A DNA stretch of 42,603 nt from positions 1-42,603 of the forward strand of contig CALJAP010000090.1 in the NCBI GenBank assembly GCA_938027655.1, written 5' to 3'. Position 1 is the first letter of the stretch. Every line of letters begins with the position of its first letter. Below the pieces are notes generated by a model, which was not told the origin of the DNA, made no database searches, and saw only the letters and a program-made list of their open reading frames with translations. This DNA is from an uncultured bacterium (GTDB taxonomy: Bacteria > Armatimonadota > HRBIN16). The position numbers were made by a program, and so were the translations under genes. This document shows, one piece after another, positions 588-42,603 of the stretch.

Positions 588-1541
588 ATGCCTGAAGTCT
601 GGTTACCTTTTGCCAAACGACACTTATGGGGTTTCACACAGGGTATTCAGGTTGGTATTGCCCCGGATGAAGTAGAGGAAGGGGCGCATTCCCCTCGTGG
701 ATTGTTCCGCATCGGCTATCCCATTCTGGATAATGGCAAAAAAACGGGGTTGATCAACTTCATTGCGGTGGAACCCATCGTGCGCGGGCAAAGAGGCTTT
801 AGCGAACTGGAATGGAGCCAAACCGACCAGCAACAGGGCAAGAGATTCTGGTGCCTGAAGGACAATGAGCCAGTATCCGAGCCACAACATGGTGAACGAT
901 ACAAAGAGGGCAAGGTAGAGTATCTGAGGGTACGCTTCCTGATAGAGCGATTCGAAAACGGCGCGGAAGTAACCGTCGCAGCAACCTTCCGCAGTGACCG
1001 CCCCGACGAGGTATGTCTGGTTGCAGAGCCCACCCCGAACAGCGCATCTCTTGACCAGTGCGTGCTTACCGCCACGATGGGGAACTACATTCGCGCCCGC
1101 CAGCTATGGCTCAGGGATGCCGTGGTACACAGCCGTGAGTTATTCGGCAGTTACCAAGGAGAACACTTCGCCCCGGATACCTGCTTCCCTCTGGAGCGAC
1201 TTCCCCGCAATCACGCAGGCGACATCGTTGTCTGCTTAACCACCGACGAGGCTGATCCGGGCAAAGAGCCAGCAAACCCGCGCGCTCCCTGGTGGCGGTA
1301 TCGAGGCTCTTTCCCTGTCACCCAGTACTGGCGCAAGCCGAAAGGCACGTGGAACCGGGACTTGCAGGTACGCGTGAACGCCCGACGTGTCTACTGGGCA
1401 AGTCAGGTGGAGATTCCGCACGGCATCGCTTACGAGAACTTTGACCTCGTCGAGCGGTTTCATAGCAGTAGCCCTTTCTGTTTTGGCGTCACCCGTAAAC
1501 CGCCAAGCTCCCTCGCGATACTAAATTACCGAGCGCGGTGA
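588..1541 (+). CDS. Hypothetical protein (ORF 414..1541; start at ATG 588 preferred)
   Basis: Long ORF MPEVWLPFAKRHLWGF..., SD GGGGAGG 5 nt upstream. Confidence 0.7.
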   Translation: MPEVWLPFAKRHLWGFTQGIQVGIAPDEVEEGAHSPRGLFRIGYPILDNGKKTGLINFIAVEPIVRGQRGFSELEWSQTDQQQGKRFWCLKDNEPVSEPQHGERYKEGKVEYLRVRFLIERFENGAEVTVAATFRSDRPDEVCLVAEPTPNSASLDQCVLTATMGNYIRARQLWLRDAVVHSRELFGSYQGEHFAPDTCFPLERLPRNHAGDIVVCLTTDEADPGKEPANPRAPWWRYRGSFPVTQYWRKPKGTWNRDLQVRVNARRVYWASQVEIPHGIAYENFDLVERFHSSSPFCFGVTRKPPSSLAILNYRAR

Positions 1542-40771: not shown

Positions 40772-40897
40772 TCACCGCGTTGACTGCGCTAACCTTACCG
40801 TTCGTGGTGAGGACTGACGCACGCGCACGGCGTCGAGGTAGAGGCGAATCGCCTGCGTGAGTTCGTCTGCCACAAGGCGAAGTGCGTAGGTTTTCAT
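40772..40897 (-). CDS. Possible 41-aa small protein
   Basis: MKTYALRLVADELTQAIRLYLDAVRVRQSS... with SD aggagg. Confidence 0.35.
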   Translation of the reverse strand: MKTYALRLVADELTQAIRLYLDAVRVRQSSPRTVRLAQSTR

Positions 40898-40989
40898 GTT
40901 TTCGTGCCTCCTGTGTTTGTGTGTGAGAGGCACAAGATGTAGTAGGCGAGAGGGGTTTTGAGCGGTTATTGCCACAAGATGTAGGGGTC

Positions 40990-41065
40990 TGGAGCCGACG
41001 GGCGGATTCGAACCGCCGACCTACGCATTACGAGTGCGCCGCTCTGCCAACTGAGCTACGCCGGC
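40990..41065 (-). tRNA. tRNA-Thr (anticodon CGT)
   Basis: GCCGGCG/CGTCGGC acceptor, ctCGTaa loop, GGCGGTTCGAATCCGCC T-arm, CCA encoded. Confidence 0.93.
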
Positions 41066-41070
41066 ACATC

Positions 41071-41119
41071 TGGTCGGGGTGAGCGGACTTGAACCGCTGA
41101 CCTCCTGGCCCCCATCCAG
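41071..41119 (-). other. 3' fragment of tRNA-Pro (anticodon GGG), probable attachment-site remnant
   Basis: Minus strand CTGGATGGGGGCCAGGAGGTCAGCGGTTCAAGTCCGCTCACCCCGACCA; no matching acceptor 5' strand or D-arm upstream. Confidence 0.75.
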
Positions 41120-41147
41120 TCCGAGACAGTCCGCGACACTCCCAGAC
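41118..41147. repeat. Three tandem 10-bp repeats AGTCCGAGAC AGTCCGCGAC ACTCCCAGAC
   Basis: Direct reading. Confidence 0.8.
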
Positions 41148-41163
41148 AGCTAGTTGCACTATT

Positions 41164-41193
41164 ATTGTACCACAACCCCCTAAGTGCTGTCAA
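41164..41193 (-). promoter_or_regulatory. Outward-facing promoter TTGACA-N18-TACAAT
   Basis: TGTCAA at 41188-41193 and ATTGTA at 41164-41169 on + strand. Confidence 0.7.
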
Positions 41194-41243
41194 CCTAATA
41201 CTTCAAATCGCAAGAAACATTGCATAGGAGGAGGATGCACACC

Positions 41244-42200
41244 ATGGCAAGAGAAGGTCAGCGCAAGGGTAACCGTTTGGTCAAGAATGAACGTGCGTTC
41301 AACCCTGACAGTCTGGATTGGATCCTGAAGGAGTACATCACCTGGATGAAGGTCACCCGCAAGAGACGCACGATTGAACACGCCGAAAGCTACCTCAAGA
41401 AGTTCATCCGCTGGTGTCACGAACAGGGCGTGGAGAACATTCACGACCTGCAGAGGTCGCACATCATGGGGTGGCAAGCGCATCTGCTGGAACACTACAA
41501 GAGTCGCGCTACCGTGTGGTCTATCAATTGTGATGTACGCGCCTTCCTCAACTGGTGCGTGCGAGAGGAGATTATCAAATCTCCACCGTTTAAGCACGGC
41601 GACTTCATCGCTAAGCCCAAGCCCAACCCGAAACCGTTGCGTGTGGATGATGTGCAGAAACTGATTGACGCCACAGACGGTAAGGGCTGGATAGCCGCGC
41701 GAGACCGCGCACTGGTAATCACTCTACTGTATACAGGCGTACGAAGCGGTGAACTGGTGCAGATGAAGGTAAGTGATCTGGACCAGCAGTCCTTCACCGT
41801 CATCCAGAAAGGCGACCGACAACACGTGGTGCATCTCAACGCGGAGTGTATCCACGAGATACGACGGTATCTCAGACTGTTCATGCGCGATACAGGAAGA
41901 CGATTGAGTGCAGATGACGCGCTATGGCAGTCCACACGGGGAGAACCCCTGTCAGGCAATGCACTCCGATTGATCATGAAACGACTGTCCGAGAAGGCAG
42001 GGGTACACGTGTGGGCACATCGATTGAGAGCCACTAGCGCCACACTGAGACTGGCAATGGGCGCTAGCACCGAACTGGTGAGAGAACAACTCGGACATAG
42101 CAGCTTAGAAAGCTTAAGGTCTTACGTCAAACTCGCAGAAGAGGATCGGGCTAGACTGCTGGACGAGACCAGTCCCCTCAAGTTCGTCAAGAAACGGTAA
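41244..42200 (+). CDS. Tyrosine recombinase/integrase
   Basis: Catalytic set R (LLYTGVRSGEL), K (VIQKGDRQHVVHL), HxxR (WAHRLRATSATL), H (LGHSSLESLRSY), Y; SD AGGAGGAGG. Confidence 0.95.
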   Translation: MAREGQRKGNRLVKNERAFNPDSLDWILKEYITWMKVTRKRRTIEHAESYLKKFIRWCHEQGVENIHDLQRSHIMGWQAHLLEHYKSRATVWSINCDVRAFLNWCVREEIIKSPPFKHGDFIAKPKPNPKPLRVDDVQKLIDATDGKGWIAARDRALVITLLYTGVRSGELVQMKVSDLDQQSFTVIQKGDRQHVVHLNAECIHEIRRYLRLFMRDTGRRLSADDALWQSTRGEPLSGNALRLIMKRLSEKAGVHVWAHRLRATSATLRLAMGASTELVREQLGHSSLESLRSYVKLAEEDRARLLDETSPLKFVKKR

Positions 42201-42383
42201 CTACTTCTTGTAATCGTTCACGTGGAACCCCGGTCCTATAAATTGGATCAGGGGCGGAGTGAACACACGCGCCGTCTCCGAACCACACTCGCATTTCGGG
42301 GGCGGTGCGTTACTCTCTGTGAACGGTCTCTCCATCTCTATGATACGACCGCATCGCTTACAACGATACACATAAGTCGGCAT
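42201..42383 (-). CDS. FmdB-family zinc-ribbon protein
   Basis: MPTYVYRCKRCGRIIEMERPFTESNAPPPKCECGSETARVF. Confidence 0.85.
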   Translation of the reverse strand: MPTYVYRCKRCGRIIEMERPFTESNAPPPKCECGSETARVFTPPLIQFIGPGFHVNDYKK

Positions 42384-42400
42384 CGGTCATCCCCCCAATA

Positions 42401-42603
42401 TTAAGAGAATAGGAACCCCACCTTATCGATGTTCTTGCGAATCCGTTTGATCGCGTTCTGAATGCTGTCGCAGACAGCAGCCCTGGTGATACCTAGGTCC
42501 GACGCTATCTCTTCCATGGTGGAAGCACCCTCATCGGTCAGACCGAAGTATCGGCACAGGCAATACATCTGACGTTCGGTCAGGATACCACTTAACGTGC
42601 GAA
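42401..42603 (-). CDS. Partial sigma-70 region 4/YlxM-like HTH protein, N-terminus beyond window
   Basis: Minus strand RTLSGILTERQMYCLCRYFGLTDEGASTMEEIASDLGITRAAVCDSIQNAIKRIRKNIDKVGFLFS stop. Confidence 0.7.
   Translation of the reverse strand, partial: RTLSGILTERQMYCLCRYFGLTDEGASTMEEIASDLGITRAAVCDSIQNAIKRIRKNIDKVGFLFS

Follow-up and report, generated by a model that had tools for sequence, protein, structure and literature searches.

A genomic island in tRNA-Pro(GGG) and predicted NrdR-type box pairs at tRNA-island ends in a genus of Armatimonadota

The tRNA-Pro island at the right end of the window

The window is the whole 42,603-nucleotide stretch of contig CALJAP010000090.1 from an uncultured member of the Armatimonadota (GCA_938027655.1), and it corresponds to the entire contig C90 of genome G000 (3.5 Mb, 219 contigs). 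Near its right end lies an intact tRNA-Thr(CGT) on the minus strand (40990-41065), which was detected by ARAGORN and by Rfam RF00005 (69.4 bits). Five nucleotides away, also on the minus strand, a 49-nt sequence (41071-41119) corresponds to the 3' end of tRNA-Pro(GGG), CCA included. It is 100% identical to positions 873-921 of contig C87 of the same genome, and an exact match of 49 nt (E 5.6e-19) is not due to chance. The original prediction of a 3' tRNA-Pro(GGG) fragment 5 nt from an intact tRNA-Thr(CGT) was thus confirmed by ARAGORN, by Rfam and by this identity. The end of the homology had been placed just 5' of the anticodon stem. It is near the stem; however, the identity with the C87 tRNA-Pro begins within the 5' strand of the stem, so that the predicted limit was 1-2 bases off. 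Integrases that cross over in the anticodon loop usually leave such a block, which extends from that loop to the 3' end. Three 10-bp tandem near-repeats (TCCGAGACAG/TCCGCGACAC/TCCCAGACAG; 41120-41149), which were read from the sequence, directly abut the fragment and are possible candidate sites of an integrase or an excisionase.

Three genes follow the fragment. The gene at 41244-42200 (plus strand) encodes a Xer-like tyrosine integrase (Pfam Phage_integrase, E 7e-25, and a SAM-like domain). The other two, both on the minus strand, encode an FmdB-like zinc-ribbon protein (42201-42383; Zn_ribbon_8, E 1.6e-9), which is island cargo, and a small sigma-70 region-4-like protein that is truncated at the end of the contig (42401-42603; Sigma70_r4, E 2.3e-7). 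The tyrosine recombinase, FmdB-like and sigma-4-like neighbors named from the DNA alone were therefore all recovered by Pfam. In the Pfam search, the integrase showed only the SAM-like and catalytic domains, and no arm-binding domain was detected. It aligns end to end with the XerC, XerD and XerA models, with scores below their cut-offs. The integrases at the same tRNA-Pro in the congeners G006 and G001 are 57% and 41% identical to it, respectively, and no relatives were found in searches of genome-contig and viral-contig collections.

Since the window is all of C90, the right junction cannot fall inside it. The sequence repeated on C87 is the 3' part of an intact tRNA-Pro(GGG) (873-949, minus strand). 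The fragment and this cognate tRNA lie on the same strand with matching flank order, and the 3' fragment is downstream of the tRNA. Thus, the element runs rightward from the window as expected, and the anticipated minus-strand tRNA-Pro with a repeated 3' half is present on another contig of the same genome. In the congener G003 (C151:6193-6350), an intact tRNA-Thr and a continuous tRNA-Pro are 5 nt apart, and no element is present. The left flank of this site is 84-87% identical to the window over the longest blocks and the right flank is 85-92% identical to C87, so that the empty site in this relative is syntenic to C90 on one side and to C87 on the other. The repeat on C87 and the empty site in G003 bear out the proposed insertion into tRNA-Pro, with the displaced 3' half left in the window; among the relatives, none was found with the fragment and no element.

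The complete arrangement is contiguous in two congeners. In G006, a tRNA-Thr (cut by the contig end) is followed by a 46-nt tRNA-Pro fragment, the integrase, approximately 23 kb and an intact tRNA-Pro. In G001, 13.7 kb lies between a 46-nt fragment and the intact tRNA-Pro. The displaced 46-nt piece in both genomes starts one base before the anticodon loop. In G000, the two junctions are on separate contigs (C90 and C87) with an assembly gap between them; the island interior is missing, and a search of this genome with the C90 and C87 contig ends gave no overlapping contig. These sequence comparisons show that a genomic island inserted in tRNA-Pro(GGG) has its left junction at the right end of the window.

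The Pro islands of G001 (L063:3542-15920, on G001:C5) and G006 (L060, on G006:C7) carry large defence-type genes. Both possess a helicase with DpdE as the best PADLOC hit (E 1e-183 to 1e-188) and a methyltransferase with DrmMI as the best hit. A 1695-aa helicase in the G001 island has DruE as the best hit. The three defence-type genes and the integrase make up nearly all of the 13.7-kb G001 island.

An integrase beside the displaced fragment had been regarded as an unusual orientation. This is not the case in this genus, in which the integrase adjoins the fragment in the Pro (3/3) and Gly-GCC (2/2) islands. In the Met, Gly-TCC and Arg-TCG islands, it adjoins the intact tRNA.

The element had also been described as splitting a tRNA-Pro/tRNA-Thr operon. 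The pair is indeed split by the element, being intact in G003, but the operon itself is a derived arrangement. In five congeners (G001, G002, G004, G005 and G008), tRNA-Thr(CGT) is the last gene of a Val-Asp-Phe-Thr operon, and in the first four of them tRNA-Pro(GGG) was located elsewhere, with tRNA-Ser(GCT) downstream. We therefore rejected the Pro-Thr pair as an ancestral operon. A Val-Asp-Phe operon that lacks Thr is kept on a separate contig in G000, G003, G006 and G007; the downstream side of this operon now faces tRNA-Arg(TCG) in G000 and G006. Comparison of L096/L094 with L065, L071, L073, L074 and L077 indicates a chromosomal rearrangement with breakpoints at tRNA ends, in which Thr left the Val-Asp-Phe-Thr operon for a place beside Pro, and tRNA-Arg(TCG) came to face tRNA-Phe. 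Several of the tRNAs involved are island sites, and recombination between islands may have caused the rearrangement.

Paired palindromes at the ends of tRNA islands

On the other side of tRNA-Thr, the window contains a truncated N-terminal integrase remnant (40772-40897, minus strand), which begins MKTYALRLVADELTQAIRLYLDAVRVRQSSPRTVR and runs into a stop. Its residues DELTQAIRLYLDAVRVRQSSPRT are identical to those of the intact integrase beside tRNA-Thr(TGT) on contig C20 of the same genome. Positions 40881-41065 align at 83.6% to the integrase/tRNA-Thr junction of G007:C135. This side, which the original prediction missed, is by its sequence a second, eroded island end. Between the integrase stump and tRNA-Thr, the near-palindrome CACAAGATGTAG occurs in two copies exactly 42 bp apart (40931 and 40973). 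These are predicted NrdR-type boxes, for which no strand is assigned: box 1, the outer box of the 42-bp pair, is CACAAGATGTAGTA (40931-40944), and box 2 is CACAAGATGTAGGG (40973-40986). Each matches at 11/12 informative positions. The center of box 2 is 10.5 bp from the 3' end of tRNA-Thr, and the same spacing and tRNA distance are found at tRNA-Val(CAC) and tRNA-Thr(TGT) of G000. This strong pair belongs to the eroded tRNA-Thr island, not to the Pro island.

A second kind of island in tRNA-Thr(CGT) was observed at L065 (G004:C1) and L075 (G006:C5), with a 45-nt displaced Thr fragment and an integrase whose extra N-terminal region resembles, by eye, an arm-binding domain. In G006, the neighboring tRNA-Thr and tRNA-Pro each hold an island.

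The 16-bp palindrome ACACaAcATgTtGTGT matches the NrdR box, and its copies form pairs with a spacing of exactly 32 or 42 bp. In 53 boxes, C4 (99%), A6 (98%), A8/T9 (98%), T11 (98%) and G13 (99%) are nearly invariant, and the C and the G are nine bp apart; since the sites were chosen by pattern and the frequencies were symmetrised over both strands, these values describe the set and are no test. Inverting such base pairs in Streptomyces coelicolor boxes lowered NrdR binding approximately 50-fold (PMC9110341). When 661 kb of genus loci was scanned with CACWAnATnTWGTG, the distances within pairs were almost only 32 and 42 bp (7 and 12 pairs, respectively, at a stricter threshold), and a rearranged control pattern gave no pairs in the same 661 kb. 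The whole genomes of ten congeners were also searched, with up to 3 mismatches allowed over both boxes. This search yielded 17 pairs at 32 bp and 19 at 42 bp, whereas the reversed control pattern yielded 0 in the same ten genomes. Within 20 bp of 34 of the 36 pairs lies a tRNA gene or a tRNA fragment. The tRNAs are Leu-CAG, Gly-GCC, Gly-TCC, Gly-CCC, Met-CAT, Arg-TCG, Arg-CCT, Thr-CGT, Thr-TGT, Val-CAC and Lys-CTT, and slightly weaker pairs add Pro-GGG. The remaining two pairs, both at 32 bp, are located upstream of dnaE, the gene for DNA polymerase III alpha (G002:C1:66260, L325; G004:C2:535703, L334). With such a pair in two species, the NrdR regulon of this genus probably extends to dnaE.

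The pair pattern is almost restricted to this genus: of 141 other genomes in the phylum, one has a 42-bp pair, with 2 mismatches. Other phyla and viruses do contain 42-bp and 32-bp pairs, but outside this genus none was found beside an integrase. Within the genus, a box pair indicates an island end or an empty scar, and false positives are almost absent. We also considered that the palindromes might be tRNA terminators or RNA hairpins; this was rejected because pairs also occur at displaced fragments and on the 5' side of tRNA-Gly(CCC).

Eight complete islands with both ends in view, all of them non-Pro, possess pairs at both ends. Usually the integrase end has a 42-bp pair and the distal end a 32-bp pair; the exceptions are Gly-TCC (42/42) and Leu-CAG (32/32). 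In a ninth island, Arg-CCT, only one end shows a clear pair. Relative to each att site, the pairs lie on the island side, and their distances to the tRNA edge are fixed. In 32-bp pairs, the center of the inner box is 7.5-8.5 bp from the tRNA 3' end; in most 42-bp pairs, it is 10.5-11.5 bp away. In a circularised form of the island, the inner boxes would be separated by 90-92 bp across the core in most of the complete islands measured; the span would be 80 bp in Arg-TCG (one turn less) and 112 bp in Leu (two turns more). A helical phase test on six independent values gave p ~0.0008, although it was post hoc and most of the values cluster through similar tRNA lengths; the final test excluded L142 on account of its inner distal box, which matched at only 6/12. 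The phase test is supportive of an attachment role but not decisive.

In L134, L135, L137 and L107, the credible genes closest to the distal end are directed toward it, and no gene starts there. Since genes converge on the distal pair in these four inspected islands, the distal pair is not a promoter. No boxes were found at the empty tRNA-Thr and tRNA-Pro sites; thus, the boxes travel with the islands. In G001, tRNA-Gly(CCC) retains a 42-bp pair without any island, which is probably a scar.

In L107:5989-11605 (G002:C5), the island in tRNA-Gly(CCC) displaced a 5' piece of the tRNA (50 nt) rather than a 3' piece; its integrase end has a 42-bp pair and its other end a 32-bp pair. L134, L135, L137 and L138 are compact, satellite-like islands of 6-8 kb. 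Their gene set comprises an integrase, a conserved 200-aa protein, a D5/NrS-1-like primase-helicase, a terminase-small-subunit-like protein and an amidase.

The Pro islands are the weakest case. At the distal end of the window's Pro island, C87 carries a 32-bp pair (827 and 859; 9/12 and 11/12) next to tRNA-Pro, which is weaker than the pairs in the Gly, Met and Arg islands. No recognisable pair was found at its integrase end, where the best site matched at 8/12. The G006 Pro island likewise has a distal pair and none recognisable at the integrase end, and the G001 Pro island has a pair at the integrase end only.

NrdR as a candidate host factor and alternative explanations

Each genome tested possesses one nrdR gene. 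Upstream of nrdR, CCCCTATATCTTGTGT and GCCCAATATCTGGGCA are 31 bp apart, the second box being weak (8/12), and this promoter pair is conserved in G002, G004 and G007. Among the loci tested in other phyla, the 42-bp pattern precedes nrdA in Aliidiomarina, nrdD in a Lactobacillales MAG and a deoxynucleoside kinase gene in Lactococcus; several other loci have no informative neighbor. NrdR tetramers bind two 16-bp boxes three turns apart and tolerate four turns, with spacers of 14-17 or 24-27 bp (PMC12051234); these spacers correspond to 32 and 42 bp between box centers. The DNA is reported to be kinked by approximately 90 degrees at each box (PMC12051234, PMC9110341). The box-bearing integrases are as little as 24-35% identical to the window integrase, and this divergence favors a shared host factor. 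The motif, the spacing and the context suggest that the palindrome pairs are NrdR sites. In full-text searches of the open PMC literature, we found no earlier report of NrdR at attachment sites.

The timing of tRNA-island excision and integration is mostly explained by island-encoded factors. The sequences show that the island was inserted by its own Xer-like integrase, and we consider it probable, with due reserve, that NrdR serves as a host accessory factor at the paired end boxes. The integrase acted on tRNA-Pro(GGG) with a crossover at the anticodon loop/stem, as is shown by the identity block that runs from there to CCA. The island brought a new 3' half, which gave the intact tRNA-Pro at the far junction on C87 and left the old half beside tRNA-Thr. 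We infer that NrdR in its dATP/ATP state would bind the end pairs and kink the DNA, and that it would assemble or block the att complexes of integrases that themselves lack an arm-binding domain, a role similar to that of ArgR and PepA for XerCD at cer (PMC5357621). Where a pair overlaps the int promoter, at the integrase end, NrdR may also repress int. Island movement would then be tied to the dNTP state of the cell.

A wider proposal, which we advance tentatively and hold to be plausible rather than probable, is that NrdR is the architectural and timing factor of the whole set of tRNA islands, that integration and excision follow the dATP/ATP ratio, and that the arms of the circular island are NrdR-bound. 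Each circular island would carry two such arms, typically a 42-bp and a 32-bp pair, flanking the tRNA-derived core. On this view, the dNTP state of the host may help control when the islands move. If this is true, a near-universal host nucleotide sensor at the att ends would couple island movement directly to the capacity for DNA synthesis, and NrdR would gain a role beyond transcription. The prediction is concrete, as it concerns defined 14-16-bp palindromes, two spacings and one host protein that is well studied in vitro.

The palindromes might instead be sites of the integrase or of an island directionality factor in an ordinary tRNA island, the likeness to NrdR boxes being convergence. They are located at the att ends, where the arm sites of integrases and the sites of excisionases are usually found, and the pair pattern is nearly restricted to the genus. 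However, the same palindrome and spacings recur across integrases only 24-57% identical to that of the window, the box-bearing integrases examined are without an arm-binding domain, and the palindrome is also found upstream of dnaE, nrdR, nrdA, nrdD and deoxynucleoside kinase genes. We therefore regard this explanation as unlikely. That the pairs are operators only, through which NrdR represses int and couples its expression to the dNTP level with no role in the recombination complex, would suit a repressor such as NrdR and the 42-bp pair just upstream of int at the integrase end. It fits poorly with the distal pairs, which are equally precise although the neighboring genes converge on that end, and with island-less scars that retain pairs beside tRNAs (L311), and we judge it distinctly improbable.

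It is less probable still that the boxes are decoys, by which an excised and replicating island titrates NrdR off the RNR and dnaE promoters and raises the dNTP supply for itself. NrdR does regulate RNR, and the small islands probably replicate, as they encode primase-helicases (D5_N, NrS-1-like, AAA_25/Toprim); a decoy, however, needs neither fixed distances from the tRNA edge nor a conserved core span of 90-92 bp. An explanation without any insertion, in which the fragment is a decayed tRNA-Pro duplicate or a rearrangement breakpoint and the recombinase is unrelated, is scarcely credible. The adjacency of Pro and Thr is itself a product of rearrangement and no contig spans the element in G000, but the empty site of G003 matches C90 and C87 on its two flanks, and two congeners have contiguous islands of identical layout in the same tRNA. 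We thus favor insertion by the Xer-like integrase with NrdR as the accessory factor.

Comparison with known systems

The displaced tRNA fragment, the intact cognate tRNA in the same orientation, the integrase at one end and the empty site in relatives are shared with tRNA islands of the Islander class (PMC4383910). The islands of this genus differ from these in the paired NrdR-type boxes at the att ends. As in P4/PICI-type satellites, L134 is 6-8 kb long with an integrase, a D5-like primase-helicase, a terminase-small-subunit-like protein and an amidase, whereas the visible cargo of the window's island is the FmdB-like and sigma region 4 proteins. The Pro islands of G001 and G006 share DpdE- and DrmMI-like genes, and that of G001 a DruE-like gene, with DISARM, Dpd and Druantia clusters; unlike in those clusters, the hits are spread over several systems and fit no single one.

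The action of XerCD at ColE1 cer with ArgR and PepA (PMC5357621) likewise involves a Xer-type recombinase without an arm-binding domain and sites of a metabolite-sensing host repressor beside the core, although the sites described here only resemble such sites. In contrast to the dimer resolution at cer, the present case is the integration of islands into tRNA genes, and the candidate factor is NrdR. The box pairs of RNR promoters (PMC9110341, PMC12051234) share with those of this genus the 16-bp palindrome, the C and G nine bp apart and the separation of three or four turns. The pairs of this genus differ in their location: instead of RNR promoters, they occupy the ends at which mobile islands attach and positions next to tRNA 3' ends.
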